Assembly: GCA_944322145.1 (NCBI GenBank)
Contig: CALUNW010000001.1
Coordinates: 248,001-312,000, forward strand
Reading direction: 5' to 3'
Length of the DNA: 64,000 bases
From: an uncultured Atopobiaceae bacterium
GTDB lineage: Bacteria; Actinomycetota; Coriobacteriia; Coriobacteriales; Atopobiaceae
Part shown: positions 7,401-50,208 of the stretch, in pieces
Position numbering within the stretch: the first letter of the stretch is position 1
Layout: every line of letters begins with the position of its first letter
Notes under the pieces: model-generated
Seen by the model: only the letters and a program-made list of their open reading frames with translations
Database searches by the model: none
Told to the model about the DNA's origin: nothing
Made by a program: the position numbers and the translations under genes

Positions 7401-7627
7401 GCAAAATCGGTCTCCAGGCCATAGTTCTTAGGGCTTGAATGCAAAATCGCCCTTCAGTCCATAGAGAAAGCGCTCAATCGCGAATGTCGTGACGGAGTGA
7501 ATAAACTCAAGGATAGCCAAATTATGCCAATGTCGAGATAACTCAGACGATGTCCCTTAATCCCTATGGACTGAAGAGGGATTTTGCATTCGCGGGTGGA
7601 GAAGTATGGACTGAAGGTCGATTTTGC
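7401..7627. repeat. Four-copy inverted cassette, family C (TATGGACTGAAG...GATTTTGC)
   Basis: Two copies in one orientation (7401-7424 and 7441-7464), a 99-base spacer, then two copies in the other orientation (7564-7587 and 7605-7627). The unit is ~24 bp with conserved ends TATGGACTGAAG and GATTTTGC. The spacer is clearly poorer in GC than the genes. The second member is at 24355-24580 with a 98-base spacer of unrelated sequence. Confidence 0.85.
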
Positions 7628-7649
7628 GTCGCTCGCGCTAAAACCAGGC

Positions 7650-8228
7650 CTACGCGAACTCGATCTCACCGGTCGCGGCGTCCATCGACTTCACCACGGC
7701 GAGGGACTCGACCTGGTAGCCGCGGGCACGCAGCTCGGCGCCGCCGGGCTGGAAGCCCTTCTCGACGGCGATGCCAATGCCCTCGACGATGACGCCCGCT
7801 TCGTTGCAAATCTCGAGCAGGCCGCTCATCGCGCAGCCCATGGCCATGAAGTCATCGATGACGAGAACATGCTCGCCGGGGGAGAGGAAGCGCCTCGCGA
7901 CGATGACCTGGTACTCACGTCCCTTGGTGTAGCTCCGCACGTTGGTGCGGTACTGGTCGCCGTCCAGGTTCTTGGACTCGGTCTTGCGCGCAAAGACCAC
8001 GGGCACGCCGCCGAAGTGGGTTGCCGCCACGCAGGCGATGCCGATGCCAGAGGCCTCGATTGTGAGAATCTTGTCGATGCGCTTTCCCGCGAACAGGCGC
8101 GCCCACTCGGCGCCCATGTGGTCGTAGAGGGCCACGTCGCACTGATGGTTGAGGAAGTTGTCGACCTTGAGGACGTTACCCTCTCGAACGATTCCGTCCT
8201 TGCGGATGCGGTCCTCGAGCTCCTTCAT
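7650..8228 (-). CDS. xpt: Xanthine phosphoribosyltransferase
   Basis: 192 residues; converts xanthine plus PRPP to XMP in purine salvage. The family opening ([24 protein letters not shown]) is present, as are the IEASGIGIA loop and the PRPP-binding motif [13 protein letters not shown] near residue 125. Length is normal for Xpt. The 107 bases upstream contain no recognisable purine riboswitch, although xpt often carries one in Bacillota; a CATAAT -10 candidate is near 8267. Single-gene unit, followed by family C repeat. Confidence 0.93.
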
Positions 8229-8335
8229 CGTGCGTGCCCCTCTCGCGTCGCGGTTTTGGCTTCACCCATTATGCACGCTCGACGCGCATTCTGCCCGGCT
8301 CGCCTGAAGATTGCCCGCAGGGCGAGGGGGAGCGG

Positions 8336-9307
8336 CTAGCGCGACTTGCGACCGAAGAACGGCAGACGGGGCAGCCGGCCGCGGAACGGGCTCACGAAGT
8401 CCTCCTCGCCGATCTGCTCCGCCTCTTCGACCTCGGGCGGAACGGTCTGGACGACGCCGTTGGGGACGTCCGCGACGGGCATGTCGGTGATGTCGGGCAC
8501 GACGGTGGCGACGGGCCGCTCCTCGCCGGCCTCGCGCGCGGCGCCCTCCGCCTTCTCGCGGTAGCGCACCATCATGTCGCGCTGGATCTCGACGACGCTC
8601 GGCGGCGCCCAGATGAGCGCGTTGGCCCCGGCGGCGATGGTCGCCGCGGCGCTCGCGTCGTCGCGCCCGCCGCTCGCGATGATCGGCAGCGAGGGGAAGG
8701 CGGTGCGCAGCTCGCGGATGACGTCGGCGGTCGCGCGCCCCGCCGCCACGTTGACGATCCGCGCCCCGGCCTGGACCTTCTCGGCCGCCTCGTTGTCAAA
8801 GCGTGTGATCGTGGCGACGACGGGGATGTCGACCGTGGAGACGACCTGAGCCACGGTCTCGGGCGTTGCGGGCGAGTTGAGCACGACGCCCGCCGCGCCC
8901 TGCATCTCCGAGACGGCGGCGAGCTCGGCGGCGCGCCGGCCCGTGGTGGTGCCGCCGCCCACGCCCACGAACAGCGGCGCCTCGGCCACCGTGAGCAGCG
9001 CCTGCGTGATGGCGGGCTGCGCGGTGAAGGGGTAGACGGCAAAGATGGCGTCGGCGTTGGAGTTGCGGATCGCGGCGACGTCGGTCGAGTAGAGCAGCGT
9101 GCGGATGCGCCGGCCGAACAGCGTGAAGCCGGTGCACTCCTCGTAGTTGTCGGGCACGCGCAGCGGCGTCTTGCGCAGGCGCCCCTCGATGGGCGTCGGG
9201 CCGTCGGCGGCGGGCACGAGGTCGTGCGCGGCGTGCCCCGCCTCGAAGATGCCGGAGACGATGCTCTGCCCGGAGGCCTGGTTCTTCTCGACGTTCGTGT
9301 TGCTCAT
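8336..9307 (-). CDS. TIM-barrel protein of unknown function
   Basis: 323 residues. The middle (~70-250) alternates strands and helices with barrel-type phosphate loops, for example FVGVGGGTTTGRRAAE and IIASGGRDDASAA, and an IVNVAAG stretch, reminiscent of phosphate-binding TIM barrels. No catalytic set that I can name is evident. The last ~60 residues are a low-complexity Pro/Glu/Val linker ending in a basic patch (FRGRLPRLPFFGRKSR). Start at 9307 is preceded by GGGAGG; an upstream in-frame start at 9340 has no such site. It follows the aldo/keto reductase on the same strand after a ~100-base gap. Confidence 0.7.
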   Translation of the reverse strand: MSNTNVEKNQASGQSIVSGIFEAGHAAHDLVPAADGPTPIEGRLRKTPLRVPDNYEECTGFTLFGRRIRTLLYSTDVAAIRNSNADAIFAVYPFTAQPAITQALLTVAEAPLFVGVGGGTTTGRRAAELAAVSEMQGAAGVVLNSPATPETVAQVVSTVDIPVVATITRFDNEAAEKVQAGARIVNVAAGRATADVIRELRTAFPSLPIIASGGRDDASAAATIAAGANALIWAPPSVVEIQRDMMVRYREKAEGAAREAGEERPVATVVPDITDMPVADVPNGVVQTVPPEVEEAEQIGEEDFVSPFRGRLPRLPFFGRKSR

Positions 9308-9410
9308 GGGGCCTCCCGGGTCTCGCTGAACTTCAGACACTTTTTTGTTCCCCGCAGGGGCCCCGCCTATTCACGGGCGAGAAGAACATGACAACCTCGT
9401 CACGCGCCCC

Positions 9411-10565
9411 TTACTTATCCTCGGTCTCGAACTCCGCCGCGACCTCGCGCAGCAGCTCGCGGATCGGCAGGTGCTGCGGGCAGGCGCGCTCGCACGCCCC
9501 GCAGCCGATGCACTCCGACGCCAGCCCGTGCCCGTGCCCGGTGTGGACGGCCTTGTAGTAGAAGCCGGCGGAGTCCTCGCCGTAGGCGCGCTTGGCGTTG
9601 AGGCAGGAGAAGACGTCGGGGATGTTGATCTTCTTGGGGCAGCCGTCCACGCAGTAGCGGCAGGCGGTGCACTCGATCGCGTTCTGCCCGCGCAGGATCT
9701 GCGTGACGCGCGCCACGGCCTCGCGCTCGGCGTCCGAGAGCGGTACGAGCGGCGAGAAGGTCGACACGTTCTCGGCGATCATCTCGGGCGTGCCCATGCC
9801 GGAGAGCACCATCTCTACGCCCGGCAGCCCGGCGGCGAAGCGCAGCGCGTAGCTCGCCGGGGAGCCGTCGCCGACGGCGGCGAGGGCCTCGCGCGCCTCC
9901 TCGGGCAGGTTGACCAGGCGCCCGCCCTTGACAGGCTCCATCACGATGACGGGCTTGCCGTGGGCGGCGGCGACCTCGCAGCACTCGCGGCTCTGGATGA
10001 CGCCGTTCTCCCAGTCGAGATAGTTGACCTGCAGCTGGACGAACTCAACGTCGGGATGGTCGGTCAGGATGCGGTCGAGGAAGGCCGCGTTGCTGTGGAA
10101 CGAGAAGCCCACGTGGCGGACCAGCCCGGCGTCGCGCGCGGCGAAGGCCTCCTCGTAGGCGTGCTCGCGCTGGTACTTCTCGTAGTTGCCCATGCCCTGG
10201 GAGTGCATGAGATAGAAGTCGAAGTAGTCCACGCCACAGGCGCGCAGCTGGTCCTCGATCAGCGGGCGGATGTCCTCGCGGCGCTCGAAGCCGTTGGGGG
10301 AGAGCTTGTCCGCGAGCAGGAACTCGGAGCGGTCGTGGCGGGAGGTGAGGGCGGCGGCGAGCGCGGGCTCCGATCCGCCGGAGTGGTAGGGCCGCGCGGT
10401 GTCGAAGTAGTTGAGGCCGCCGTCGAGGAAGGCGTCGACCATCTGCGAGAACGTGGCGATATCGACGCTGCCGTCCTCGAGCTTGGGCAGGCGCATGCAG
10501 CCAAAGCCGAGCTTGCCGCGGGCGTCCTCGAAGGGCGCGACGTGCGTGGTCGTGGTGGTGCTCAT
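9411..10565 (-). CDS. Aldo/keto reductase with C-terminal 2x[4Fe-4S] ferredoxin domain
   Basis: 384 residues. The first ~280 form an aldo/keto reductase barrel (GFGCMRLP, YFDTARPYHSG with the Asp-Tyr pair, HVGFSFHS). The C-terminus has two ferredoxin clusters: CTACRYCVDGCP and CIGCGACERACP, with further Cys between. This fused architecture is common in strict anaerobes and is thought to use ferredoxin-type electrons for carbonyl reduction; the substrate is unknown. It overlaps no neighbour and probably has its own promoter. Confidence 0.9.
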   Translation of the reverse strand: MSTTTTTHVAPFEDARGKLGFGCMRLPKLEDGSVDIATFSQMVDAFLDGGLNYFDTARPYHSGGSEPALAAALTSRHDRSEFLLADKLSPNGFERREDIRPLIEDQLRACGVDYFDFYLMHSQGMGNYEKYQREHAYEEAFAARDAGLVRHVGFSFHSNAAFLDRILTDHPDVEFVQLQVNYLDWENGVIQSRECCEVAAAHGKPVIVMEPVKGGRLVNLPEEAREALAAVGDGSPASYALRFAAGLPGVEMVLSGMGTPEMIAENVSTFSPLVPLSDAEREAVARVTQILRGQNAIECTACRYCVDGCPKKINIPDVFSCLNAKRAYGEDSAGFYYKAVHTGHGHGLASECIGCGACERACPQHLPIRELLREVAAEFETEDK

Positions 10566-10636
10566 GGGGTCCCCTCTCCCTCGTGTGCTCTGGGGGACAT
10601 TCTACGCCGTCGCGCGTCCCGCGGGTTGGCACGCCC

Positions 10637-11662
10637 TCAGTACAGCCCGAGGATCGACTCGAGGGTCTCGTCGAGGTCGTCCTCGTCGACGGCCCACGCC
10701 CCGTCGACGCGCTCCAGCAGGAAGGTGTACGTGTACGTCTCCGGCTCGGCGGGGCTCGCGAGGGCCTGCTCGGCCGCGGCGGCAATGTGCTCGCGCTGCG
10801 CCTCGTTGGGCATCCTTGTATCCCGGCCCCAGAGGTCGTTGTCGAGCAGGTACTCGCCGAAGGCGTCGTTGAGCGTCCAGAAGAGCTCGTTGGCGCTGCG
10901 GGCGGTCACCTCCGCATACGCCGACGCGGTGCCGTCGTCGAAGGCGTAGGCGTAGCTCGCCTCGGCGCTGAGGCCCTCGAGGACGTGCGTGGCGAGCCCA
11001 TCCGCGTCAAGGCCAAGCTCCGCGGCGGTGTAGCCCTCGATGGTGAGCATCTTCTCGTCGAGGTAGGCGGCCACGCGGTCGTGGAGCTCCCCGGAGGCGG
11101 GGTCGGCGAGCAGCTCGGCAAGGCGCGCCTCGAGCGTCGCCACGGCGGACTCGTCGTCGGCGTCCTGCTCGGGGACGTAGTCGTCCCCGTCGTCGCTGTC
11201 ATCCTCGAAGAATATGACGCCCAGGTCCTCCATCGCGCTGCCGATGCCGTCCGCGGCGCTGCCAACAAGCCCGATGGCGCAGCTCACAAGCGACGAGCCA
11301 AAGCTGAGGAGAAGGACGATAAGAACGATGACGCGCGTCACGACCCTACGGTCGCGCGTCGTTCGCTCCTGCACCTCGCCGGAGGGCGCGGGGGAGCGCC
11401 GAGCCCGCGTCCTTCTCGGCCTGCGCGGCTCGTCGATCGACGGCGCGTCGTAGTCGTGTCCGCGCGTGTTGGGCGCCCGGTAGTCGTCCTCGGGCTTATG
11501 GGGCGTGCCGCCGGGCTCGCCGTGAGCGGCGTACTCGACCTGGCCCTCGGGCTCGTCTGCCCCTGCCAGCGCGTCGGGCTCGCCGCCCGGCAGCTCGGGC
11601 TCGCCGGCGTTGAAGGGGTCGACCTGGGACCCCTCGGTGCGCGAGAAGCGGAACGCGGCCAC
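10637..11662 (-). CDS. Membrane-anchored protein with long cytoplasmic linker, function unknown
   Basis: 341 residues from the GTG at 11662, chosen for GGAGGGG 6 bases upstream. Residues ~1-100 are hydrophilic and low in complexity (Pro/Glu/Asp, many Arg), followed by one strong membrane helix (VVTRVIVLIVLLLSFGSSLV). A short acidic tether (DDSDDGDDYVPEQDADD) leads to a ~190-residue outer domain rich in acidic and helical segments. This resembles the DUF-type lipoprotein-like domains common in Coriobacteriia surface proteins, but I cannot name the family. Divergent from the SPFH gene. Confidence 0.65.
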   Translation of the reverse strand: MAAFRFSRTEGSQVDPFNAGEPELPGGEPDALAGADEPEGQVEYAAHGEPGGTPHKPEDDYRAPNTRGHDYDAPSIDEPRRPRRTRARRSPAPSGEVQERTTRDRRVVTRVIVLIVLLLSFGSSLVSCAIGLVGSAADGIGSAMEDLGVIFFEDDSDDGDDYVPEQDADDESAVATLEARLAELLADPASGELHDRVAAYLDEKMLTIEGYTAAELGLDADGLATHVLEGLSAEASYAYAFDDGTASAYAEVTARSANELFWTLNDAFGEYLLDNDLWGRDTRMPNEAQREHIAAAAEQALASPAEPETYTYTFLLERVDGAWAVDEDDLDETLESILGLY

Positions 11663-11763
11663 GTCTGCCCCCTCCGTACGGCGAAAATGTTGCACCCAGT
11701 ATATTGAAAGCGACCTTGGTTGGGTATGCTGTGAGGACCTAACGGGCGTCCTAGGGAGTGCCA

Positions 11764-12735
11764 ATGGAGCTACTCGGTCTGGTTCTTATCGTCCTCGTGG
11801 TGTTTCTCATCGTCGGCCTGGTGACCGGCAACCTGTTCTACGTGGTCAAGCAGCAGCACGCCGTAATCATCGAGCGCCTGGGCAAGTTCCACAAGATCGT
11901 GGGCGCGGGCTTCCACGTGAAGATCCCGTTCGTGGACCGCAAGGCGGCCACCGTCAGCCTGCGCACGATGAAGAACGGCTTCAACATCGACGTCAAGACC
12001 GAGGACAACGTCACCATCGGGCTTGAGATCTCGGCCCAGTACCACGTGAGCTACGAGCGCGGCGAGCGCCCGCAGGACTCCGGCGTCTACAAGAGCTACT
12101 ACATGCTCCAGCAGCCCGTGGCGCAGATGCGCGACTTCATCACCGACGCCCTGCGCTCCTCGATCCCGGTGTACACGCTCGACGAGGTCTTCGCCAAGAA
12201 GGACGACATCGCCAAGGACGTCAACGCCACCGTGTCCGAGCAGATGGCGGCCTACGGCTTTACGCTCGTCTCGACGCTCATCACCAAGATCGCGCTGCCG
12301 GCCGAGGTCGAGGACTCGATGAACCAGATCAACGCGGCCCAGCGCACCAAGGCCGCCGCGCAGGATCTCGCCGAGGCCGACCGCATCCGTCGCGTGACCG
12401 AGGCCGTCGCCGAGGCCGAGGCCATGGAGAAGGCCGGCGAGGGCATCGCCAACCAGCGCAAGGCCATCGCCGCCGGCATCAAGGAGTCGCTCGAGACCAT
12501 CCAGGAGACTGGCGTGGGAAACGACGAGGCCAACCAGCTCTTCATGTTCACGCAGTGGACCGAGATGATGGCGGAGTTCGCCAAGACCGGCAAGAGCTCG
12601 ACGGTGGTGCTGCCGAGCGACTTCACGCAGACCGCGAGCATGTTCGAGCAGATGATCGCGGCCGGCTCGGCGGGGGAGGGCGCCAAGGTGCCGCCCGCGC
12701 CCGGCGCCGGGACGGGTGCCGACGCAAAGAGATAG
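11764..12735 (+). CDS. SPFH-domain (stomatin/prohibitin/HflK-C-like) membrane protein
   Basis: 323 residues. One N-terminal membrane helix (LLGLVLIVLVVFLIVGLVTG) is followed directly by the SPFH/band-7 domain (QHAVIIERLGKFHKIVGAGFH, then VKIPFVDRK). A long Ala/Glu-rich coiled coil follows (~190-250), with a Pro-rich tail. Such proteins form large rings that organise membrane microdomains or restrain proteases. Start at the ATG 11764, with GGGAG 5 bases upstream; an in-frame GTG at 11758 overlaps that site. No NfeD-type partner gene is adjacent. Confidence 0.9.
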   Translation: MELLGLVLIVLVVFLIVGLVTGNLFYVVKQQHAVIIERLGKFHKIVGAGFHVKIPFVDRKAATVSLRTMKNGFNIDVKTEDNVTIGLEISAQYHVSYERGERPQDSGVYKSYYMLQQPVAQMRDFITDALRSSIPVYTLDEVFAKKDDIAKDVNATVSEQMAAYGFTLVSTLITKIALPAEVEDSMNQINAAQRTKAAAQDLAEADRIRRVTEAVAEAEAMEKAGEGIANQRKAIAAGIKESLETIQETGVGNDEANQLFMFTQWTEMMAEFAKTGKSSTVVLPSDFTQTASMFEQMIAAGSAGEGAKVPPAPGAGTGADAKR

Positions 12736-12789
12736 GCGCCGGGCGGCAGAGGTTTCGGGCGGGTTCCGGATGCTTTCTCATCGAGAGGC

Positions 12790-12949
12790 GACCGGAGCCC
12801 GCCCGTTATTTTCGGCAGATGATTGCGGGCTGGCTGCGGTCACTTTGGACTGAAAAAACGACCGGAGCCGGCCCGTTATCCCAAACCTTCGAAAACGGGC
12901 TGGCTGCGGTCACTTTGGGATGGTGAAAACGTCCGCAGCCGGCCCGCTC
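12790..12949. repeat. Tandem hairpin array, family G
   Basis: Two full hairpins (12790-12841 and 12860-12911) have left arms like GACCGGAGCCGGCCCGTTAT and right arms like CGGGCTGGCTGCGGTC. A third left arm (12931-12949) ends at the stop codon of the HAD gene. The array fills the gap between the convergent SPFH and HAD genes, so it may also act as a terminator. Confidence 0.8.
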
Positions 12950-13615
12950 TTATCGGCCCAGGATCGCGGCGGGCAGCTCGCGCAGGCTTCCGAGCACGCC
13001 GGCGCAGCGATCCACGAGCTCGGGCGTGGGCGTTGCCCACTCGGGCACCAGGTAGGTGGCCATCCCCGCCGCGCAGGCGGCGAGCGCCCCGTTGACGGAG
13101 TCCTCGACGGCGGCGCAGGTCACGGGGTCGAGGCCCAGGCGGCGCGCCGCCTCGAGGTAGATGTCCGGCGCCGGCTTGGCGTGCTCGATCTGGTCGCCGA
13201 AGGTCATGGACGAGAAGAGCGGTGCCATGTCAAAGCGCTCCATGAGGGGCAGCGCGTGCTCGCGGATCGTCGAGGTGGCCAGCGCCACGGTGACGCCGGC
13301 GTCGACGAGCGAGCGCAGCGCCTCGAGTGCGCCCTCGCAGGGCTCCAGGCTCTGCTCGCGAATCTCGAAGAAGAGCTCGACCTGGTGCGCGAAGAGGCGG
13401 TCGGTGAGCGCGGGGTCGCCGAGGTGCTCGTTCATGATCGCGCGGGCGTCGGGCAGGCTGCACCCCACGTACGCGTTCCAGATGCGGTCGGGCACGTCGA
13501 GCCCGAGGTCGGCTGCGGCGCGGCGCCACGCAGTCTGGCTCACGCGCTCGGTGTCGACGAGCGTGCCGTCCATGTCGAAGATCACTGCCTGGGGGAGAGC
13601 GTGCGGTTCGGTCAT
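12950..13615 (-). CDS. HAD-superfamily phosphatase / beta-phosphoglucomutase-like
   Basis: 221 residues. HAD motifs: FDMDGTLVDT (~13-22), ATST (motif II), K in HAKPAPDIY (motif III) and AAVEDSVNGALAA (motif IV). The helical cap between motifs I and II is of the beta-phosphoglucomutase type. These enzymes remove or shift phosphate on small sugars; the substrate is not predictable. Stands alone; the family G repeat lies directly at its 3' end and family F at 13682, ahead of its start. Confidence 0.85.
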   Translation of the reverse strand: MTEPHALPQAVIFDMDGTLVDTERVSQTAWRRAAADLGLDVPDRIWNAYVGCSLPDARAIMNEHLGDPALTDRLFAHQVELFFEIREQSLEPCEGALEALRSLVDAGVTVALATSTIREHALPLMERFDMAPLFSSMTFGDQIEHAKPAPDIYLEAARRLGLDPVTCAAVEDSVNGALAACAAGMATYLVPEWATPTPELVDRCAGVLGSLRELPAAILGR

Positions 13616-13681
13616 GCGAGGTCCTTCTCGGTCGTCGGGGGTACCAAGGCGGCATTGTATCCGGCCTGCGGGCCGCCGCTC

Positions 13682-13753
13682 GCCGAGTAAGAGTTAATTA
13701 CCAAATCCCGACGAAATTCGGGGCCCTTTTGGCAAATTTCTCTTACTCGACGA
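13682..13753. repeat. Nested palindrome, family F (GCCGAGTAAGAG)
   Basis: Outer arms GCCGAGTAAGAG and CTCTTACTCGAC enclose weaker inner pairing (CCAAAT/TTTGGC and CCCGA/TCGGGG). It lies between the HAD gene promoter region and the end of the permease gene. A better-preserved copy is at 63575-63648. Confidence 0.8.
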
Positions 13754-13790
13754 GTGCTCAGTTGGCGAGAAGGACGCTCCGCCGCGCCCG

Positions 13791-16700: not shown

Positions 16701-16868
16701 GCCCACCACGGTGACGGCGGTGCGCACGCGGTTTGCCGCCAGCGACCGCAGCGTGTACCTCACGAACACCGAGTGATTCAATTGGGGACAGACCCCTTTT
16801 GAATCATTGGGACGATGATTCAAAAGGGGTCTGTCCCCAATTGAATCACGCAGGTGCTTGGCGGCCAT
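13791..16868 (-). CDS. Large FtsX/MacB-type ABC transporter permease
   Basis: About 1025 residues. Two FtsX-type membrane modules are visible: one helix at the N-terminus, a ~300-residue outer domain, three helices around the segment with LLSSLGASRRQLRHTVLVEA, another helix and outer domain, and a final module with ALRSAGMGERAFRRMILAE. Such permeases pair with an ATPase to act on envelope peptides or lipids rather than as classical importers. I start at ATG 16868 (GAGGG ~10 bases upstream, 3 bases after the ATPase stop). Codons 8-33 are then made of the family D palindrome; a start after the palindrome would lack a ribosome site. Operon with the ATPase; two-component genes upstream. Confidence 0.85.
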   Translation of the reverse strand: MAAKHLRDSIGDRPLLNHRPNDSKGVCPQLNHSVFVRYTLRSLAANRVRTAVTVVGIALATGLLMAVLASVTSLQEGLANQSRETGGVWQVELRETDDAELARLREFAGARLDRLAIRRDLGAAPFSADDAEHCGTYLSVLTLPQEQDGTARSRGDLAYEVIPSPTLESGRLPERDGEVVLTSNLRGAELAPGASELPGVDAGVTAEGPLAVGSEVTLSLGRRVAHYEDGTSQEVGAESGVMYQSVIVGTDPYGMPNVEQGPIAETLEGVSAPQTYTVVGFVDPDWETPGYTAYVSADAAGGAAMPRETAYFSTSCASYEELTELVQELRPGGGAALNVGLMTYEGLTPDRLIFDTLGMFAATLAAVVVAAAVSLITNAFTISVSERTRQFGLLSSLGASRRQLRHTVLVEAAVLGAVGIPLGMALGLAGAAVAFAVTGTGWARMVGTASEVTLSVRPWCVGLTVLLAVLALLVSAMVPAVRAGRVSAVDAIRSAADVRPSRRLRRVFRRRRSPLDDLSADRRRPRGLAARLGGMPAFLARRTLAVSAGKARVAVLSLAVSVTLLVTAGVVNDMLSGAVGVAYGGGAFSYDLELYTADDSSTVAEGEKDARSAVLDASDGTLGRIASIDGVSAAAYVVQAAATARLSEELVPALPGGVVPGSSGGVNVSEDGTASASVYLVDDASWHALADAGVVPADNADPARLSALLASTVNASDGVRYGERELLGAGTSGTVELLALDAREGYGDPLIAWGDGEPAAYYVPTDAEDASRQVKVPVDEATHVAATVPVTAVSPDDLGEHSSVSAAQLKGDCPALVMPARAVRESAGALEALLDGSRTPWAYYHVRLADGADDAEVLRQMDDAADAPGVESLGTTNLLAQQRDARAMSFTVQVFLVCFAAILALIAVANVFNTIASGMMLRTREFAALRSAGMGERAFRRMILAECADYALRGLVLGTVLALVVELVLWRAMSLSVSGLALAVPWGHLALAFAVVVAVLAASVVYALRKTHALNLVEALRAEAL
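16773..16849. repeat. Perfect 35-bp inverted repeat, family D, inside the permease 5' coding end
   Basis: Arms 16773-16807 and 16815-16849 are exact complements with a 7-base loop. Each arm holds GGGGACAGACCCC flanked by AATTG/TTTTGAATC. Read on the minus strand it is free of stop codons in the permease frame and would encode ~25 residues that look unlike the rest of the protein. The 31-bp copy in rsmB at 33940 is the same family. Confidence 0.9.
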
Positions 16869-17663: not shown

Positions 17664-17807
17664 GTGAGGGTATGTACAGTGGGCCCTGAGGGTATGTACG
17701 CCCAGCCATCGAGTGCGGGCAGAAAACCTGCAGGTCAGAGCTCTGCCGAGAAGAACGCGCCGCTGGAGCGGTGTACATACCCTCAAGAGGTGGTGTACAT
17801 ACCCTAT
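17664..17807. repeat. Four-copy inverted cassette, family A (GAGGGTATGTAC)
   Basis: Two direct copies of TGAGGGTATGTAC (17664-17677 and 17687-17699), a 73-base spacer, then two inverted copies GTACATACCCT (17773-17785 and 17795-17807). The spacer carries one GAGAAGAAC 9-mer. It fills most of the 301-base gap between the ATPase and histidine-kinase genes. The second member is at 42523-42665. Confidence 0.85.
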
Positions 17808-19756: not shown

Positions 19757-19972
19757 GCGTGCGATGGGGCGGCGTGCGATAGGAGGCGTATCGCACGCGG
19801 GGGTCGCCCGGCGCGTGCGATAGGCCGCCCATCGCACGCGGGGGTCGCCTGGCGCACGCGATAGGCCGCCCATCGCACGCATACGCTCCCCGGGACGCAC
19901 GGCTGCGCGCGAAACGCCGCCCGTCGCACGCAGGCCCTCCCCGCCGCGTGCGAAACGCCGCCCATCGCACGC
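19757..19972. repeat. Tandem hairpin array, family I (GCGTGCGAT...ATCGCACGC), five copies
   Basis: Five hairpins of ~27 bases (near 19772-19798, 19811-19839, 19851-19880, 19905-19931 and 19946-19972) have arms like GCGTGCGAT and ATCGCACGC, with the middle GGCCGCCC mostly conserved. A partial copy precedes them at ~19757. The repeat period is ~40 bases. The 538-base gap between the response regulator and cstA holds this array and the cstA leader; I see no gene in it. Confidence 0.85.
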
Positions 19973-24282: not shown

Positions 24283-24354
24283 GTGGGCATTGTAGCGTCC
24301 CGCCGGGAGGCTGCCGTCGCCAAGCCTGCTTAACTCCGCCGCGGGGAACGAGAT

Positions 24355-24580
24355 GCAATTTTGATCTTCAGTCCATATTTCCGCCCGCGCGCCTGCATAA
24401 CCGCGCTTCAGTCCATGGAATTCTGGGCCGCCCTCAGGTTGAGAACTGTGGAACTATATGGAGATGAATTCCTACGTAATGTCAACGGTACGTGCCTGGC
24501 TGAGGGGGCTTTATTCTTATGGACTGAAGCGCGATTTTGCAGACGCGCTGCCGGAAATATGGACTGAAGACGAATTATGC
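24355..24580. repeat. Four-copy inverted cassette, family C
   Basis: Copies at 24355-24378 and 24395-24418, a 98-base GC-poor spacer, then inverted copies at 24517-24540 and 24557-24580. Ends TATGGACTGAAG and GATTTTGC match the member at 7401-7627. It occupies most of the 410-base gap between divergent genes; the rest (24581-24692) is the leader of the ABC gene. Confidence 0.85.
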
Positions 24581-24692
24581 ATGTTCCGGGCATGTCGTCC
24601 TGCGTCCGCGGCGACGCAGTTCGAGACGGGCGCGACTACCTCGGGACTTGTTTGGGTACCATGTGAGGGTTTATTGCCATCTGGAGGAACCC

Positions 24693-39022: not shown

Positions 39023-39199
39023 GGTGCCGGAAAACCGTCATATGCGCATTTCGGTGCCAAAATCCGGGCATGTGCGTACTTCTCGTACGCACTTAACGGA
39101 AATCCAGCACCAAAACACGCATTTCTCGGAAAACTGGCACGCCTGGGTCCTGGAGGCAAGGACGTTGCGTCGGTGCCGGAAAACCGACATCTGCGTACG
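39023..39199. repeat. Four-copy inverted cassette, family B, plus a solo copy
   Basis: Direct copies begin at 39023 and 39053 (GGTGCC...), and inverted copies end at 39111 and 39140. The centre GTACTTCTCGTAC joins the inner pair. A single extra copy lies at 39172-39199. It fills the middle of the 395-base gap between divergent genes. Confidence 0.85.
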
Positions 39200-42425: not shown

Positions 42426-42436
42426 GGCGCGCTAGG

Positions 42437-42520
42437 CGGCATCTGCCGAGAGATGCCGCGCACTTCTCGCCCGCTCGCAGAAGTGCGGCCCTCCGCGCAC
42501 TCGATGCGCGCACTTCTCGC
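42437..42520. repeat. Hairpins after the UbiB gene, GCGCACTTCTCGC copies
   Basis: CGGCATCT/AGATGCCG (42437-42460) forms a short hairpin just after the stop. It is followed by a hairpin CGCACTTCTCGC/GCAGAAGTGCG (42457-42488) and a third copy of GCGCACTTCTCGC at 42506-42520. The first may terminate the UbiB transcript. Confidence 0.6.
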
Positions 42521-42522
42521 CA

Positions 42523-42665
42523 GGAGGGTATGTACACCGCGCCCTCAGGGTATGTACACCACTCCGAAGCGCTCGTTCTTCTCGATAGGGCCTCTACCAG
42601 CGCGTACGTGAGATGTCCGAATCCGGATGGTGTACATAGCCTAAAGGCGCGGTGTACATACCCTA
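42523..42665. repeat. Four-copy inverted cassette, family A
   Basis: Direct copies of AGGGTATGTACACC at 42523-42538 and 42545-42560, a ~67-base spacer, then inverted copies GGTGTACATA-C/G-CCTA at 42628-42642 and 42650-42664. The spacer holds one GTTCTTCTC (42575), just as the other member at 17664 holds GAGAAGAAC. Confidence 0.85.
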
Positions 42666-42749
42666 AATAATCCGCACCTCGTGCAAGGATGGTGCGCTCC
42701 GAATCGTGTCTATGGCAAAGGGATGTCCCCGAGACGTGTGAGGGAGCTG

Positions 42750-43061: not shown

Positions 43062-43076
43062 CGGACGGGAGGCGAG

Positions 43077-43562
43077 GTGCGCGACTCCGCGGACATGGAG
43101 CGAGCGATGGGCGAGCACGCTGACGCCGTGTGGCGCGCGTGCATGCTCTACCTGCCTCCCTGTGACGCAGAGGACGTCTTCCAGGAGACGTTCATCAAGC
43201 TCGCGCGGCACACGGAGGCCTTCGCGGACGCCGCCCACGAGCGGGCGTGGCTGCTGCGCGTGGCCATGAACGCGTGCAAGGACGTCCTCAGGTCGGCCCG
43301 GCGGCGCGACGTCTCGCTCGACGAGCGGCTCGAGCGCGTGGGCGACGAGGGGCTGGGGGCGCAGGCGCCCTGCGAGACGGGCCTTCGCGAGGTGCTCGAC
43401 GCCCTCGATGCGCTCGGTGACCCGCCCAAGACCCAGCTCTACCTCTCGCTCGTCGAGGGCTACGGGGCACGGGAGATATCAAAGATGTGTGACATGCCCG
43501 TCGGGACCGTCTACTCGTGGATCTCGCGCGGCAAGCGGAGGCTCAGGGAGGTGCTATCATGA
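43077..43562 (+). CDS. ECF-type sigma factor
   Basis: 161 residues. Region 2 (AEDVFQETFIKLAR) and region 4 (GAREISKMCDMPVGTVYSWISRGKRRLREVL) fit ECF sigma factors; no region 3. GTG start with GGGAGG 4 bases before. It overlaps the anti-sigma gene (ATGA). Three Cys lie in the N-terminal half, unusual but not diagnostic. Confidence 0.88.
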   Translation: MRDSADMERAMGEHADAVWRACMLYLPPCDAEDVFQETFIKLARHTEAFADAAHERAWLLRVAMNACKDVLRSARRRDVSLDERLERVGDEGLGAQAPCETGLREVLDALDALGDPPKTQLYLSLVEGYGAREISKMCDMPVGTVYSWISRGKRRLREVLS

Positions 43563-44335
43563 CCGACGCCGAGATGCGGGTCCGCGACGCCTTCGCGCGG
43601 GTTCGCGCCCCCGAGGGGCTCAAGAAGCGCACGATCGCAGCCGTCGAGGCTGCGCGCGCTGGCGAGAAGGACGCCCTCTCCCTTGTCCGGGCGGCGCCGG
43701 CGCATCCCGCACGCCTGGCCCCGCGACGCCTGGCGCTGCGCCTCGCGGCCGCGGCCTGCCTGGCGCTCGCCCTTCTCGGCGGGGCCTACGTGGCGCTGAC
43801 CCCCACGGCATACGTGGGCATCGACGTCAACCCCTCGATCGAGCTCTCGGTCAACCGCTTCGACCGCGTGGTGGGCGCGCGGGGCGTGAACGACGACGGC
43901 GCAGGCGTGCTTCAGGGGGCTGACGTTATGTGGGCGCGGTGCGCCGACGCCCTCGGCATCATCGGCGAGCGGCTCGAGCAGGAAGGCTATCTCGACGGGG
44001 ACGCCGAGCTCGAGGTGACCGTGACGTGTGGCGACAACGGGCAGTACGATGCCATCGAGGCTGCGTGCCATGACCGTCTCGGCGACGCGTCGGACGACGT
44101 GAGCTGCTCGCGCGCGACCGAGGAGGAGCGTCACGCCGCGCACGAGTGCGGGATGGGCGTCGGGAAGTGGCGCGCGCGGCAGGATGCCGCGGAGGCGGGA
44201 GAGGGCGTGAGCGCCGAGGACGCGGCGGACATGTCCATGCGCGAGCTGCGCGACCTCTCCCCGGACAGCACCGTCTCGGGCCATCGCCACGGTGGGCGCG
44301 GGCACGAGCAGCGCGGAGGCCCATCGCGTCGCTAG
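43559..44335 (+). CDS. RsgI-like membrane anti-sigma factor
   Basis: 258 residues. A short cytoplasmic N-terminal region, one membrane helix (LRLAAAACLALALLGGAYVAL, ~62-82), then the RsgI hallmark VGIDVNPSIELSVNRFDRVV (~87-106). The NPS site in RsgI proteins is known to self-cleave between Asn and Pro. The outer domain (~110-240) ends with a His/Gly/Arg-rich tail and contains Cys. It should hold the sigma factor encoded just upstream until a signal outside releases it. The stop overlaps the convergent zincin gene. Confidence 0.85.
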   Translation: MTDAEMRVRDAFARVRAPEGLKKRTIAAVEAARAGEKDALSLVRAAPAHPARLAPRRLALRLAAAACLALALLGGAYVALTPTAYVGIDVNPSIELSVNRFDRVVGARGVNDDGAGVLQGADVMWARCADALGIIGERLEQEGYLDGDAELEVTVTCGDNGQYDAIEAACHDRLGDASDDVSCSRATEEERHAAHECGMGVGKWRARQDAAEAGEGVSAEDAADMSMRELRDLSPDSTVSGHRHGGRGHEQRGGPSRR

Positions 44336-44718
44336 TAGCCCATCGCGGCGAGGGTCTCGTCGTCGTTGCCGAAGTAGTGCCCGACCTCGTGTATCACGGT
44401 GCGCCTGATCTCGTCGAGAAGGACGTCCTGCCCGTCCTCAGCAAAGCAGCGCTCGTGCGGCCCCTTGAAGATGGTGATGACGTCGGGGAGCTCGCCGGTG
44501 CCGTAGCAGCTGTCGCGCTCCGTCATAGGGGAGCCGTCGTAGAGCCCCAGCAGCTCGTCCTCCGAGAAGGAGGCGTTGTCGTTGCCCGCGCCGGCCCGCT
44601 GCTCGGCGCTCGGCTCGTCCTCGACGACAAAGACGACGTTGTCGAGCTCGTCGAAGAGCTCGTCGGGAATGGAGTCGATCGCGGCCTCCACGGCAGCCTC
44701 GAACTGCTCCTGCGTCAT
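44332..44718 (-). CDS. Zincin-like metallopeptidase (PF06262/DUF1025 type)
   Basis: 128 residues from ATG 44718 (GAGAGGGG upstream). TVIHEVGHYFGNDDETL carries HExxH and the downstream Asp ligand of these minimal zincins. No signal peptide, so it works in the cytoplasm on an unknown substrate. Convergent with the anti-sigma gene, sharing 4 bases. Confidence 0.88.
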   Translation of the reverse strand: MTQEQFEAAVEAAIDSIPDELFDELDNVVFVVEDEPSAEQRAGAGNDNASFSEDELLGLYDGSPMTERDSCYGTGELPDVITIFKGPHERCFAEDGQDVLLDEIRRTVIHEVGHYFGNDDETLAAMGY

Positions 44719-44903
44719 GCGTCCCCCTCTCCGTGACGGTCTCCCCACTGTACCGCGAGCTTCAGGCGCGGTCGAGCCATGTGTTCAAACGGTGCTCTTC
44801 TCTCCGCTTTCAGAATTGTGAGTTAGAAAGTAGCAATTAGGGCACAAGAGGACTATACCGCCCGGCACCGTGGCCGGGCGACGTCAAGGAGAGGAAACTC
44901 CAC

Positions 44904-45494
44904 ATGCAACAGTACGAATACGGCTACGACCGCGCCGGCGACCTCGTCGAGAACTGGAACGAGGTAGTGCGTCGGACGCGCGGCCTCACCATAGCGCTCG
45001 GAGCGCTCCTGCTGCTTGCGGGCGTCGCGAGCGCCCTGTCTCCGCTCGGCCTCTATGCCCTCATCCAGGCTGCGGTTGCCGCGGCGCTCATCGTGGGAGG
45101 AATCGCGGGCGTGGCCTCCTGGGCGGGGACCCCGCGCCCCCTGCGCAGTCCGGTGACGGTCGTCATGGGCGTCCTCAACGCGCTTCTCGGCATCATGCTG
45201 CTTGCGCTGCCCACCTATCTCACGGCCGAGACGCTGGCGCTGCTGCTGGCCGCCCTGTTCCTGGCCGCGGGCGCCGAGCGCGTCGCGATCGCCCGGCGCA
45301 TGAGGGCCGCGGGCATCGAGGGAGCCGGCGTCTCCCTGGCCACGGGCATCGTCAACATCGTGGCGGGCGCGGCCTTCCTGGTACTTCCGTTCCTCTCGAG
45401 CCTGATGCTCGTCTATCTCATGGCGGGCTACCTCGTCGTGGGCGGCGCGAGCCTGCTGGTCGAGGGCATCGCGATGCACAAGGTCGAGCGCTAG
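44904..45494 (+). CDS. HdeD/DUF308-family six-helix membrane protein
   Basis: 196 residues; after ~25 polar residues come three pairs of helices with the DUF308 repeat pattern (helix, short turn with Pro, helix). HdeD-like proteins are linked to acid stress in enterics, but the role here is unknown. AAGGAGAGG precedes the ATG. The ~160 bases upstream are AT-richer and hold TATACC-type -10 candidates. Ends at a strong terminator. Confidence 0.85.
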   Translation: MQQYEYGYDRAGDLVENWNEVVRRTRGLTIALGALLLLAGVASALSPLGLYALIQAAVAAALIVGGIAGVASWAGTPRPLRSPVTVVMGVLNALLGIMLLALPTYLTAETLALLLAALFLAAGAERVAIARRMRAAGIEGAGVSLATGIVNIVAGAAFLVLPFLSSLMLVYLMAGYLVVGGASLLVEGIAMHKVER

Positions 45495-45570
45495 GGACCA
45501 TGTCGGCGAGGCGCGCTTCCCAAGCGGCGCGGCAGCCGAGAAGAACCTGCGGCCCGATCGGGCGCACAAA

Positions 45571-45607
45571 GAGGCGGCCGGGCGCCCACTGAGCGCCCGG
45601 CCGCCTC
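45571..45607. terminator. Bidirectional terminator
   Basis: Perfect 15-bp arms GAGGCGGCCGGGCGC (45571-45585 and complement 45593-45607) with a 7-base loop between convergent genes. TTTG follows on the minus strand, serving the exporter operon. Confidence 0.85.
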
Positions 45608-45624
45608 TGTCGATGCCCTTCTCG

Positions 45625-47553
45625 CTACTCGAGCTCGAAGGCCCCGGTGTAGAGCTGGTAGTACGTGCCCTTCTTGGCGATCAGCTCGTCATGCGTGCCG
45701 CGCTCGATGATGCGGCCGTGGTCGAGCACGATGATCACGTCCGAGTTGCGGACCGTGCTCAGGCGGTGCGCGATGACGAAGGTGGTGCGGCCGGTCATGA
45801 GCGCGTCCATGCCGCGCTGGACGATCGCCTCCGTGCGCGTGTCGATTGAGGACGTGGCCTCGTCGAGCACCATGACCGGCGGGTCGGCCACCGCCGCGCG
45901 CGCGATGGAGAGCAGCTGGCGCTGGCCCTGCGAGAGGTTGGTGCCGTTGTCCGTGAGCATGGTGTCGTAGCCGTCGGGCAGGCGGCAGATGAAGTCGTCC
46001 GCGCCCGCCAGGCGCGCCGCGGCCCGGCACTCGTCGTCGGTGGCGTCGAGCCTGCCGTAGCGGATGTTGTCCATGACGGTGCCCGTGAACAGGTTCACGT
46101 CCTGCAGGACCATGCCGAGCGAGTGGCGCAGGTGCGGCTTCTTGATCTTGTTGATGTTGATCCCGTCGTAGCGGATCTTGCCGTCCTCGATGTCGTAGAA
46201 GCGGTTCAGCAGGTTGGTGATCGTGGTCTTGCCCGCGCCGGTGGCGCCGACGAAGGCCACCTTCTGGCCCGGCTTGGCGTAGAGCGAGACGTCGTGGAGC
46301 ACCGTGTGGCCGGGCTCGTAGGCAAAGTCGACGTCGAAGAGGCGCACGTCGCCCGCGAGCGGGGTGTAGGTGACGGTCCCGTCCGCCTGGTGCGGGTGGC
46401 GCCACGCCCACTGACCGGCCCAGTGCTCGTCGCGTCGCTTGCACTCGTGCACGGTGCCGTCGCGGTCGATCGTGCAGGCGACGAGCTCGACGTAGCCCTC
46501 GTCCTGCTCGGCCGGCTCGTCGAGCAGCTCGAAGATGCGCTCGGCGCCGGCGAGGCCCATGACGACGGAGTTCACCTGGTTGGAGATCTGGCCGATCTGG
46601 TTGGCGAACTGCTTGGTCATGTTGAGGAAGGGCACGCCCACGGCGATGGTGAGCGCCATGCCCGAGACCGACGGGTTGGGGATGCCGACGACCAGGAACA
46701 CGCCGATGGCGACGGCCACGATGACGTAGAGAAGGTTGCCGGAGTTCATGAGGATCGGCATGAGCGTGTTGGCGTAGGAGTTGGCGGTGCACGCCGCGTC
46801 CTGGTACTCGTCGTTGAGCTCGTCGAAGGCGCGCTCTATCTGGCGCTCGTGCGAGAAGACCTTGACGACCTTCTCGCCGTTCATGACCTCCTCGACGAGG
46901 CCCTCGACTGCCGCGACCGCGCGCTGCGTGCGCAGGAAGTTCTTGGCGGAGCGGCCGGCAAGCGTCTTGGCGAGAAGTGCCATGACAGCGGCGCCCGCCA
47001 CCACGACGAGCGTCAGCGGCAGGCTGTACCACACCATGATGCAGCTCACGGAGACGAGCATGAGCATCGTGAGGAACAGGTGCGGCAGCGACTGGGAGAC
47101 CATCTGGCGCATGGCGTCGATGTCGTTGGTGTAGTAGCTCATGATGTCGCCGTGCTGGTGCGTGTCGAAGTACTTGACCGGCAGGTCCTGCATGTGGTCG
47201 AACATGAGGCAGCGGAACTTCTTGAGCGAGCCCTGCGTGATGATGGCCATGAGCTGCTGCCACACGGCGTTGCACAGAAGGCTCCCGAAGTAGAGCGCGG
47301 CGAGGATGGCGGCGTTGGTGAAGACCTGGGGCTGCGCCGTCGCCCAGTCGCCCGACTCCCAGGTCTGGCCCACGACGGTGAGCGCGCGCTCCATGAAGAC
47401 GTTGGGAAGCGCCTGGACGATGCACTGCACCAGGATGCAGACGGCGACCGTCGGCAGCATCACCGGGTAGAAGGAGAGCAGCATCTTGAGGACGCGAAGG
47501 GTCGTCCTGCCCATGGACTTGGGCGCCCGCCCGCGGTGCATGTTCCTACTCAT
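45625..47553 (-). CDS. Heterodimeric ABC exporter, canonical subunit (pair 1)
   Basis: 642 residues, six helices then an ATPase. Walker A GATGAGKTT, signature LSQGQRQLLSIAR, Walker B VMVLDEATSSID with catalytic Glu, H-loop VIAHRLST. A ~60-residue insert with WAGQWAWRHPH joins the membrane and ATPase halves. It pairs with the subunit encoded upstream, whose own site is degenerate; together they form a BmrCD/LmrCD-type multidrug or peptide exporter. The two genes overlap by 8 bases. Nearly a duplicate of 50315-52342, especially in the ATPase part. Confidence 0.93.
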   Translation of the reverse strand: MSRNMHRGRAPKSMGRTTLRVLKMLLSFYPVMLPTVAVCILVQCIVQALPNVFMERALTVVGQTWESGDWATAQPQVFTNAAILAALYFGSLLCNAVWQQLMAIITQGSLKKFRCLMFDHMQDLPVKYFDTHQHGDIMSYYTNDIDAMRQMVSQSLPHLFLTMLMLVSVSCIMVWYSLPLTLVVVAGAAVMALLAKTLAGRSAKNFLRTQRAVAAVEGLVEEVMNGEKVVKVFSHERQIERAFDELNDEYQDAACTANSYANTLMPILMNSGNLLYVIVAVAIGVFLVVGIPNPSVSGMALTIAVGVPFLNMTKQFANQIGQISNQVNSVVMGLAGAERIFELLDEPAEQDEGYVELVACTIDRDGTVHECKRRDEHWAGQWAWRHPHQADGTVTYTPLAGDVRLFDVDFAYEPGHTVLHDVSLYAKPGQKVAFVGATGAGKTTITNLLNRFYDIEDGKIRYDGININKIKKPHLRHSLGMVLQDVNLFTGTVMDNIRYGRLDATDDECRAAARLAGADDFICRLPDGYDTMLTDNGTNLSQGQRQLLSIARAAVADPPVMVLDEATSSIDTRTEAIVQRGMDALMTGRTTFVIAHRLSTVRNSDVIIVLDHGRIIERGTHDELIAKKGTYYQLYTGAFELE

Positions 47554-49396
47554 CGGCGCTCACCTCCAGCTCGCCGAGCTCGCGCTCGTCGTGGCTCTGC
47601 TTGTTCTGCGAGAGGTAGACCTCGCGATAGATGGCGTTCCTGCGCAGCAGCTCCTCGTGCGTGCCGATGTCGTTGATGCGTCCGGAGTCCATGACCACGA
47701 TGCGGTCGGCGTCCTCCACGCTCGAGGTGCGCTGGGCGATGATGATCTTGGTGGTCTCGGGAAGGTAGTTTCGGAAGCCCTCGCGGATGAGCCGGTCGGT
47801 CTTGGTGTCCACGGCGCTCGTCGAGTCGTCGAGGATGAGGATCTTCGGCTTCTTGAGCAGGGCGCGCGCGATGCACAGGCGCTGCTTCTGGCCGCCGGAG
47901 ACGTTGGTGCCGCCCTGCTCGATGTAGGTGTCGTACTTGTCGGGGAAGGTCTGGACGAACTCGTCCGCCTGGGCCAGGCGCGCCGCCTCGAGGACCTCCT
48001 CGTCCGTGGCGTGCTCGTTGCCCCAGCGCAGGTTCTCCGCGATGGTTCCCGAGAAGAGCACGTTCTTCTGGAGCACCATGGCCACCGCGTCGCGCAGGGT
48101 CTCGAGGTCGTACTCCCGCACGTCGCGGCCGCCCACGCGGACGCTGCCCTCCGTGACGTCATAGAGGCGCGGGATGAGCTGGACGAGCGTGGTCTTGGCC
48201 GAGCCGGTGGAGCCGATGACGCCGATGACCTCGCCGCTTCTGATGTGCAGGTCGACGTCTCGCAGGGCCTCGCGGCTCTTGTCGCCGCTGTAGGAGAAGC
48301 CCACGGCGTCAAAGTCGATGGAGCCGTCGGCGACCTCGGTCACGGGACGCTCGGGCTGGTCGATGGTGGTCTTGGCGTCGAGGACCTCGTAGATGCGTCG
48401 CGCGTTCTCCTCGCTCATGACCACCTGGGCGAAGATCATCGAGAGCATCATGAGCTGCATGAGCATCATGAAGCCGTAGGTGATCAGCGACGAGAACTGG
48501 CCCACGTCGAGCAGCTCGCCGCGAGAGGAGACGATCGCGTAGGAGCCGGCGTAGATGACGAAGACCATGACGGTGTAGACGCAGAAGTTCATGATCGGCG
48601 CGTTGAGGGCGAGGATGCGCTCGGCGTAGGTGAAGTCGTTCTGGACCTCGGTCGCGGCGCGCTCGTACTTCTGCTTCTCGTAGTCCTCGCGGACGTAGGA
48701 CTTGACCACGCGGATGCCGGCGAGGTTCTCCTCGGCGCGCTCGTTCAGGGCGTCGTACTTGCGGAAGATGCGCCGGAAGACCGGGACGACCTTGCGGATC
48801 ACGCCGAAGAGCGCGAGCGCCAGCACCGGGATGATGATCACGAAGATCAGCGCGAGCCACCCCGCCATGGAGTAGGCGGCGATGAAGGCGAGCACGAGCA
48901 TGAACGGGGAGCGGACGGCCGTGCGGATGAGCATCATGTAGGCCATCTGGACGTTCATGACGTCGGTGGTGATGCGCGTCACGAGCGAGGAGCTCGAGAA
49001 GCGGTCGATGACGGCGAACGAGAAGGTCTGGATGTTGTAGAACATGTCCTTGCGGAGGTTCTTGGCAAAGCCGGTGGACGCCTTGGCGCACGTGAGGCCT
49101 GCGGCCGCGCCGAAGGCGAGCGAGATGAGGGCCATGATCGCGAGGACGGCGCCCGTCGAGACGATCTCGTTCAGGTCGGCGCCGGCCTTGATGGCGTCGA
49201 TGAGGTCTGCCGTGAACAGCGGGATCATGACCTCGAAGACGACCTCGCCGAGGACGAGCAGGGGAGTGAGGACGGCCGCGCGCTTGTACTCGCGCACGCT
49301 TCCCATGAGCCGGCGGCCAACCGTGCCGTAGCCCACGTGCGACGCCGTCTTCACGAACTCCTCGTCCATGACGGGCTTCTGAGGAAGGATGCTCAT
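47546..49396 (-). CDS. Heterodimeric ABC exporter, degenerate-site subunit (pair 1)
   Basis: 616 residues. ATPase differences from canonical: Walker A GSTGSAKTT (Ala for Gly), Walker B ILILDDSTSAVD (Asp for the catalytic Glu) and IIAQRTSSV (Gln for the H-loop His), while the signature VSGGQKQRLCIAR is intact. This is the usual one-dead-site design of heterodimeric exporters. ATG 49396 overlaps the MarR stop (ATGA). Confidence 0.93.
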   Translation of the reverse strand: MSILPQKPVMDEEFVKTASHVGYGTVGRRLMGSVREYKRAAVLTPLLVLGEVVFEVMIPLFTADLIDAIKAGADLNEIVSTGAVLAIMALISLAFGAAAGLTCAKASTGFAKNLRKDMFYNIQTFSFAVIDRFSSSSLVTRITTDVMNVQMAYMMLIRTAVRSPFMLVLAFIAAYSMAGWLALIFVIIIPVLALALFGVIRKVVPVFRRIFRKYDALNERAEENLAGIRVVKSYVREDYEKQKYERAATEVQNDFTYAERILALNAPIMNFCVYTVMVFVIYAGSYAIVSSRGELLDVGQFSSLITYGFMMLMQLMMLSMIFAQVVMSEENARRIYEVLDAKTTIDQPERPVTEVADGSIDFDAVGFSYSGDKSREALRDVDLHIRSGEVIGVIGSTGSAKTTLVQLIPRLYDVTEGSVRVGGRDVREYDLETLRDAVAMVLQKNVLFSGTIAENLRWGNEHATDEEVLEAARLAQADEFVQTFPDKYDTYIEQGGTNVSGGQKQRLCIARALLKKPKILILDDSTSAVDTKTDRLIREGFRNYLPETTKIIIAQRTSSVEDADRIVVMDSGRINDIGTHEELLRRNAIYREVYLSQNKQSHDERELGELEVSADE

Positions 49397-49884
49397 CTCC
49401 CATCTCCCTTCTCGGTCTTTTCGGTCTTCTCGCCCTTCTCGGCGGACTCGAGCTCGGCCCAGCGGGCGGCGACGCGGTCGAGCGTCTCGACGAGCCGGTC
49501 CCGCTCCTCCGCGTCGAGGCAGTCGAAGGCGCGGGACTCGAACTCGGCCCTCGTGCGGATGACCTCGCGGGCGCGCGCCTCGCCCTCGGGCGTGAGGGTG
49601 ACCGTGAGCTGGCGGCGGTCCGTCGCGGACCGCTCTCGCGTGACGAGCCCCTCTGCCTCGAGCTTGGCGATGACCTCGGAGAGCGACGCGGAGGTGATGC
49701 ACGAGGCCTCCTGCAAATCGCGTTGCGTCATCTCGGAGCCGTTGGAGAGAAGCTCGACGAGTATGTGCTGCTTGCCGTTTCGACCGCCCCAGTGGACGTG
49801 GAGGTAGTAGCCGAAGTACCCGAAGTTGCGCATGATGCGCGTCTCGGTACTCGGGCTGGAGCTCTTTTCCTCCGTATCACACAC
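49393..49884 (-). CDS. MarR-family regulator of the exporter
   Basis: 163 residues from the GTG at 49884, chosen for AAGGAGG 5 bases before it; the frame could extend to 49923, but that extension covers the palindrome below. The winged helix is seen at SEMTQRDLQEASCITSASLSEVIAKLEAEGLVTRE, with wing RSATDRRQLTVTLT. C-terminal tail is Lys/Glu repeats. First gene of the operon with exporter pair 1, and likely an autoregulator that senses an exported compound. Confidence 0.9.
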   Translation of the reverse strand: MCDTEEKSSSPSTETRIMRNFGYFGYYLHVHWGGRNGKQHILVELLSNGSEMTQRDLQEASCITSASLSEVIAKLEAEGLVTRERSATDRRQLTVTLTPEGEARAREVIRTRAEFESRAFDCLDAEERDRLVETLDRVAARWAELESAEKGEKTEKTEKGDGR

Positions 49885-49906
49885 GGCAGCCTCCTTCCCC
49901 TTAGAT

Positions 49907-49968
49907 AACTGCAGTTCACACACAACTTTGGGGCCTTAGGGAGATGATGTCAAGGTACCATGCGATAT
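49907..49968 (-). promoter_or_regulatory. MarR/exporter promoter region with a motif shared with exporter pair 2
   Basis: Contains a small palindrome AACTGCAGTT (49907-49916) and, at 49947-49968, ATGTCAAGGTACCATGCGAT. The latter nearly matches 54253-54272 ahead of exporter pair 2 (two mismatches in 20). On the minus strand it includes TTGACA. Candidate operator or promoter for both exporters. Confidence 0.6.
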
Positions 49969-50073
49969 CCTCAAGCCGTCGGGGATGAAGGCGCTTAGCA
50001 GGCCCCGGACGCCCCGGTTTTCCTCATGCGACGCGGGCGCACCGCCCGAATTCGGACGGCATACGTTATCGCA

Positions 50074-50208
50074 GGTGCCGGTTTCCGCAGGTGCCGGAAT
50101 CCGGCCGAATGCGTGTTTAGGTGCCAAAATCCGGGCGAATGCGTGTCCGTCGCACGCATATGACGGGATTTTGGCACCGATTCACGCATTTCGCGGAAAT
50201 CAGGCACC
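50074..50208. repeat. Four-copy inverted cassette, family B (best-preserved member)
   Basis: Direct copies at 50090-50115 and 50120-50145 (GGTGCC-n-AATCCGG-n-ATGCGTG), inverted copies at 50151-50178 and 50183-50208, plus a half copy at 50074. The inner and outer pairs can form one long hairpin. It lies in the 430-base gap between MarR and exporter pair 2, where no gene is seen. Confidence 0.88.

Follow-up and report, generated by a model that had tools for sequence, protein, structure and literature searches.

Intergenic repeat families of an Atopobiaceae genome with paired arms around a central core

The window analyzed here, a 64,000-bp stretch (C1:248001-312000) of genome G000, which comprises 2.40 Mb in 25 contigs, raises the question of why short repeats of dissimilar sequence should be laid out alike. 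An earlier note had proposed that three families, A, B and C, share a plan of two direct units, a spacer and two inverted units, and that one process, whether mobilization, a shared RNA fold or binding by related proteins, acts on several of these units. All four A and C elements of the window follow this plan, whereas family B, with its variable unit number, does not. The spacers measure 101 and 100 bp in C and 71 and 72 bp in A, where 99 and 98 bp, and 73 and ~67 bp, had been given. The A and C elements are as follows.

7400..7628, no strand assigned: family C element with direct units at 7400-7423 and 7440-7463, a spacer at 7464-7564 and inverted units at 7565-7588 and 7605-7628; orthologue in G018, at a matching locus
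17667..17805, no strand assigned: family A element with direct units at 17667-17678 and 17689-17700, a spacer at 17701-17771 and inverted units at 17772-17783 and 17794-17805; orthologues in 3 other genomes
24354..24581, no strand assigned: family C element with direct units at 24354-24377 and 24394-24417, a spacer at 24418-24517 and inverted units at 24518-24541 and 24558-24581; orthologue present in G018
42525..42664, no strand assigned: family A element with direct units at 42525-42536 and 42547-42558, a spacer at 42559-42630 and inverted units at 42631-42642 (1 mismatch) and at 42653-42664; centre inverted in the G018 orthologue

Layout of the repeat families

A search of G000 with a 12-mer of the C unit, allowing at most 1 mismatch, returned 64 matches, compared to 1 for a reversed-pattern control. 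Sixty-two of these matches fell into 17 loci, every one of which displayed the two-plus-two layout of two direct 24-bp units, a spacer and two inverted units, with a spacing of 40 / 102-114 / 40 bp. Specifically, the inner start-to-start distance was 102 bp at 2 loci, 112 bp at 4, 113 bp at 10 and 114 bp at 1. Units that the 12-mer missed were placed by spacing and then read; in a 24-mer search, 67 of the 68 units of the 17 loci lay within 5 mismatches, the exception being at L092. One more match sits in an 18th, diverged two-plus-two element, and the match at C5:184628 had no partner within the stretch examined. Thus, the genome-wide search bore out the layout for C, with single copies rare.

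Family A follows the plan of C with a spacing of 22 / 82-85 / 22 bp. Its 12-mer matched G000 160 times, compared to 3 in the control, and at least 34 A centres are present in the G000 stretches that were read. Of the 97 centres measured in G000 and in related contigs, 95 have an inner distance of 82-85 bp and 2 one of 106 bp, and 79 distinct elements from several genomes displayed the full ++-- order with exact 22-bp spacing. Three G000 elements carry a third unit on one side. The units of both A and C are asymmetric and non-palindromic. Exact A direct pairs were found in 54 stretches, a count from which records of the genome itself were possibly left out. Every one of these stretches belongs to Olsenella sp. 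An285 or An293 or to one of three uncultured Atopobiaceae MAGs, which places G000 with the Olsenella type. A phage or plasmid origin was set aside, since exact direct pairs were absent from the viral contigs searched and the 42525 element had no match among the plasmids and phages searched.

Three B arrays are present in the window.

71..190, no strand assigned: loose family B array
39023..39189, no strand assigned: family B inverted array of 30-bp period, with units at 39023+, 39053+, 39094-, 39124- and 39172+
50090..50208, no strand assigned: family B array of two plus two units around a short centre

The B unit matched G000 126 times with at most 2 mismatches, compared to 5 matches in the control. 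In 20 clusters, the number of units varies, the period is 30 bp and the centre is short, and just 1 of these clusters was called exactly ++--; the B unit is partly palindromic, and both-strand matches inflate some of these layouts. B was therefore rejected as a third member of the A/C plan and is better described as a variable inverted array. A separate family, an GCGTGCGATAGGCCGCCCATCGCACGC-type repeat array, lies at 19768-19972 of the window.

Spacer cores and RNA folding

The A spacers harbor an asymmetric core in either orientation (45:50), which lies at an identical position in 89 of 95 spacers and one base off in 6. The view that the spacers are unrelated in sequence is thus overturned for A. 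For C it holds loosely: 30 of 43 spacers carry a weaker core related to that of A, the window loci L001 and L004 not being among them. The EM search used 60 restarts for the real run and 25 for the control, and the G009 locus L315, which yielded no spacer, was left out of it. When the full 35-column A matrix was applied to the C spacers, a small excess was obtained (-21.0 vs -24.2). Three core matches were located in the window.

1552..1586, + strand: weak A-type core match with no A arms, PSSM score 13.8
17722..17756, + strand: A-type core within the 17667 element, PSSM score 44.6, with a matrix built from A elements including this one
42575..42609, - strand, opposite to the 17667 core: A-type core within the 42525 element, PSSM score 35.6

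A search for paired arms of at least 12 bp flanking the match at 1552..1586 found none, and this match is possibly an element with other arms. The motif CGAGAAGAAC, which also forms the end of the A core, is enriched between genes, where 6 of its 7 window copies lie.

In both families, arm-type repeats flank the core at constrained distances, as an attP-like site requires. The core-to-arm distances in C mostly take two values on each side, about one helical turn apart.

A shared RNA fold would be expected to leave matching changes in the two arms of an element. In the 79 A elements, the similarity of the linkers was 0.591 between arms of the same element and 0.589 between elements, and the inner 12 bp gave 0.395 within and 0.434 between elements. 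The lack of linker covariation in A makes a shared RNA hairpin unlikely. The 17 C elements displayed a weak within-element excess, with values of 0.456 vs 0.398 for the inter-unit stretches (p 0.017), 0.882 vs 0.854 for the inner unit (p 0.022) and 0.828 vs 0.811 for the outer unit (p 0.074). A self-hairpin was sought in the C inter-unit stretches and none was found, and Rfam returned nothing at gathering scores on the window. A structured RNA, as offered by the earlier note, was set aside for A.

Placement, dispersal and dialects of the elements

The midpoints of all 51 distinct A and C elements, counted after removal of one duplicate, lie between genes predicted with a retrained gene model. 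The surrounding genes are co-directional in 28 cases, convergent in 11 and divergent in 12; a role as promoter sites was rejected, as there was no clear side preference. For many of the elements, a predicted stop codon precedes them by some 20-60 bp. The genes scanned beside the elements were varied and included two regulators (ArsR-type and HTH_3).

Comparison of 33 A copies in G000 revealed 20 pairs with similar spacers, and in these pairs the similarity stops outside the outer unit. Thus, A disperses as a discrete unit of ~140 bp bounded by inverted repeats, and mobilization, one of the processes first proposed, is supported for this family. Of five A loci tested in G018, 2 are empty, 2 filled and 1 ambiguous; in the gene region compared, G018 and G010 each exceed G006 by one A element. 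At G018 L180 663-1224, a hicB-like gene and a small neighbor, possibly hicA although it has no Pfam match, lie between two A elements, and this stretch is missing from G000. For 30 A elements, the longest string shared by the 25-bp flanks was 5.23, against a permuted mean of 4.73 and a maximum of 5.2 in 200 permutations. No repeat was found consistently at the borders of these elements, and no 5-bp duplication was seen.

Dispersal of A as a discrete mobile unit, together with the many elements just past stop codons, would also suit MITE relics of a lost transposon that are kept only as terminators or mRNA-stabilizing hairpins. Such an RNA role, however, needs local pairing rather than one unit everywhere or a fixed core spacing, and no consistent target-site duplication (TSD) accompanies the elements; we consider this origin rather improbable.

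For C, G018 has orthologous elements at 11 of the 17 loci. In nine G000/G018 pairs, the units are 96% identical, the 100-bp flanks 94% and the spacers 92%; in the pair L013/L143, G018 lacks the inner part. At the remaining six loci, G018 is without the element and the borders are ragged; G010 has an element at 5 of the 6. When five C elements present in G018 only were traced in G000 by their flanks, none revealed a clean empty site. Palindromes of the GAGCATGCCATATGGGACGGA type, a further repeat family, adjoin the C elements of L145 and L151 in G018 and have many partial matches in G000 and G018.

The centre of the element can also be inverted between genomes. This was observed in 3 of 18 A orthologue comparisons (13 loci), including the window element 42525, and in 1 of 10 C pairs, L019/L148. 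Such inversions, and the near-equal orientations of the A core, are what invertible regulatory switches would produce if an arm-bound site-specific invertase flipped the centre, a proposal that overlaps the explanation we prefer. Most orthologues are uninverted, however, the inverted stretch varies between cases, L019/L148 by eye resembles recombination with conversion, and no promoter-side preference was seen, so that we judge dedicated switches to be quite unlikely.

The arm units differ between species at corresponding loci. At five loci with C in G000, G010 has the same layout with inner units AACAAAA..CTTCGATCCATG, compared to TGCAAAA..CTTCAGTCCATR in G000. Indeed, CGATC is present in 21 of 24 inner units of 12 G010 elements and in 0 of 34 in G000. 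In G009, CTTCGGGTCAGTG-like units were seen by eye at 3 of 6 loci compared (L008, L015 and L092), and also elsewhere. For C, inner units resemble one another more closely inside one genome than across orthologous loci, even though the within-G000 value is lowered by the L092 right arm, which was cut out of register; the outer left units do so slightly and the outer right units do not. The G000/G010 spacer identities at the five loci are within the range of unrelated pairs, and the elements there may have been replaced. L015 and L016 have the highest spacer identities of the five and by eye a common core variant, which suggests that C units changed in place at these two loci. Elsewhere in the genus, orthologous gaps contain an A-like core flanked by different arms, as in G001 (matrix score 30.5) and, by eye, in G004 and G022. 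In G006, an GTTGTGTACAC-type arm with an A core was seen by eye where G000 has a C element.

High copy number (18 C elements, and 34 or more A centres in those parts of G000 that were read), a position between genes that shows no clear preference for gene orientation, fixed core-to-arm distances and unit dialects would all be consistent with chromosome-organizing sites. An abundant nucleoid protein would bind their arms and bridge the DNA locally without recombining it; occasional duplication would spread the copies, and selection would keep them. Discrete similar copies, presence or absence between close species and a two-way asymmetric core are nevertheless unexpected of purely structural sites. 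We therefore hold this account to be unlikely, though one to be taken seriously.

Candidate enzymes and known systems

RAYT transposases had been considered as possible mobilizers, and G000 encodes three Y1 genes. A survey of 24 stretches, in which two genes were covered twice, gave 22 distinct Y1 loci from G000 and its relatives, none of which contains an A, B or C unit or a G009/G006 variant unit in the 3.3-5.5 kb covered. Other palindromes adjoin all three G000 genes. RAYT mobilization of A and C was rejected on this evidence. At L209 2118-2240, ~240 bp past a Y1 gene of G008, a core-like match of low score (11.5) is accompanied by CAGTTTTTTGG / CCAAAAACTG arms; it is a lead, not a link. 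This match, the three Y1 genes and the high-copy, intergenic, inverted layout are what can be said for elements of the REP/REPIN type, which RAYT transposases would move in the form of single-stranded hairpins. Against this stand the lack of such units at the 22 Y1 loci, the other palindromes beside the G000 genes, the A linkers with no covariation and the non-palindromic units, and such an origin seems to us highly doubtful.

Other repeats do accompany Y1 genes. One Y1 gene is flanked on either side by a copy of an 84-nt repeat (L212 2074-2157 and 2981-3064); the copies are 96% identical, and the repeat by itself forms a hairpin. A perfect 35-nt inverted repeat with an GGGGACAGACCCC centre is present at 16773-16849 of the window; because like palindromes flank 2 of the 3 Y1 genes of G000, it is probably a true RAYT-linked REP.

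Five PF00589 matches were found in G000; none is tied to the elements, and no set of tyrosine recombinases or integrases matching the number of families is evident among them. No recombinase adjoined the elements among 10 genes of one A-rich region and 20 of the 32 listed C-neighbor genes. Likewise, no autonomous relative with the same ends was present among the 64 C matches or the first 100 of the 160 A matches in G000.

Tandem transposase sites are found at each end of Mu, Tn7 and Tn552, and Hin enhancer complexes have a central enhancer with a phase requirement. A and C differ from Mu, Tn7 and Tn552 in that no transposase gene was found with the elements and no 5-bp duplication was seen. 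A lambda-type attP spans ~240 bp, with a core between two sets of arm sites; a single protein that has two DNA-binding domains bridges arms and core, together with bending proteins (PMC4880445). A and C resemble it in the arm sites that flank the core on both sides, but are present in many copies per genome with no integrase or prophage attached, have a unit period of 22 or 40 bp and lack an integrase set matching the families. REPIN and REP-BIME sequences form short, intergenic, inverted and species-specific populations (PMC3116915), and A and C share these four properties; unlike REPINs, they have two direct non-palindromic units per arm, a long spacer with a core and no RAYT association among the 22 Y1 loci. 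Correia/NEMIS, ERIC and RUP MITEs are dispersed units of small size with inverted repeats at their borders, and some contain an internal site for a host factor (PMC2229807). A likewise is a small dispersed unit with inverted-repeat borders, but no consistent TSD was seen in the 30 A elements compared, and the arms vary from species to species around a conserved core. A literature search, with most subscription journals outside its scope, found no description of these elements.

Taken together, the data favor double-stranded binding sites at fixed distances around a core, carried on a small mobile unit. One process acting on several units finds support for A and C, which have the same plan, a partly shared core and exclusively intergenic placement, and not for B. 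Among the processes first proposed, protein binding fits best, given the lack of A linker covariation, the few fixed core-to-arm distances and the unit dialects. We put at even chances the explanation that A and C represent non-autonomous elements, mobile or serving recombination, of arm-core-arm build, the arms of which would be bound by a putative protein. Each element would consist of two tandem binding sites, a central core and two inverted binding sites. A sequence-specific protein would bind the arms on double-stranded DNA and bridge or loop them to a core-bound partner, much as in a lambda-type intasome or an enhancer-dependent transpososome, and copying and inversion would be products of recombination or transposition by that protein. 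The arm-binding domain would change quickly, with selection making its many sites follow. Where A and C recall attP-type or enhancer-type complexes, the likeness is one of functional analogy.

The same layout with species-differing tags points to a putative DNA-binding machine that would evolve with its sites. More tentatively, and as a possibility rather than an expectation, A and C may belong to a genus-wide site system outside the described mobile elements. It would combine one core-recognition activity with several fast-changing arm-recognition activities and have lineage-specific arm dialects at dozens of loci, where a recombinase not yet described would flip and copy the segment between the arms.

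For the genus, the findings mean that not all short intergenic repeats are RAYT-linked. The fixed core-to-arm distances would make the architecture of the putative protein-DNA complex predictable from sequence. If the arms are read by a protein, the dialects would be a natural record of joint change in a DNA-binding specificity and the many sites it recognizes, and one that sits in genomes with comparable orthologous loci.
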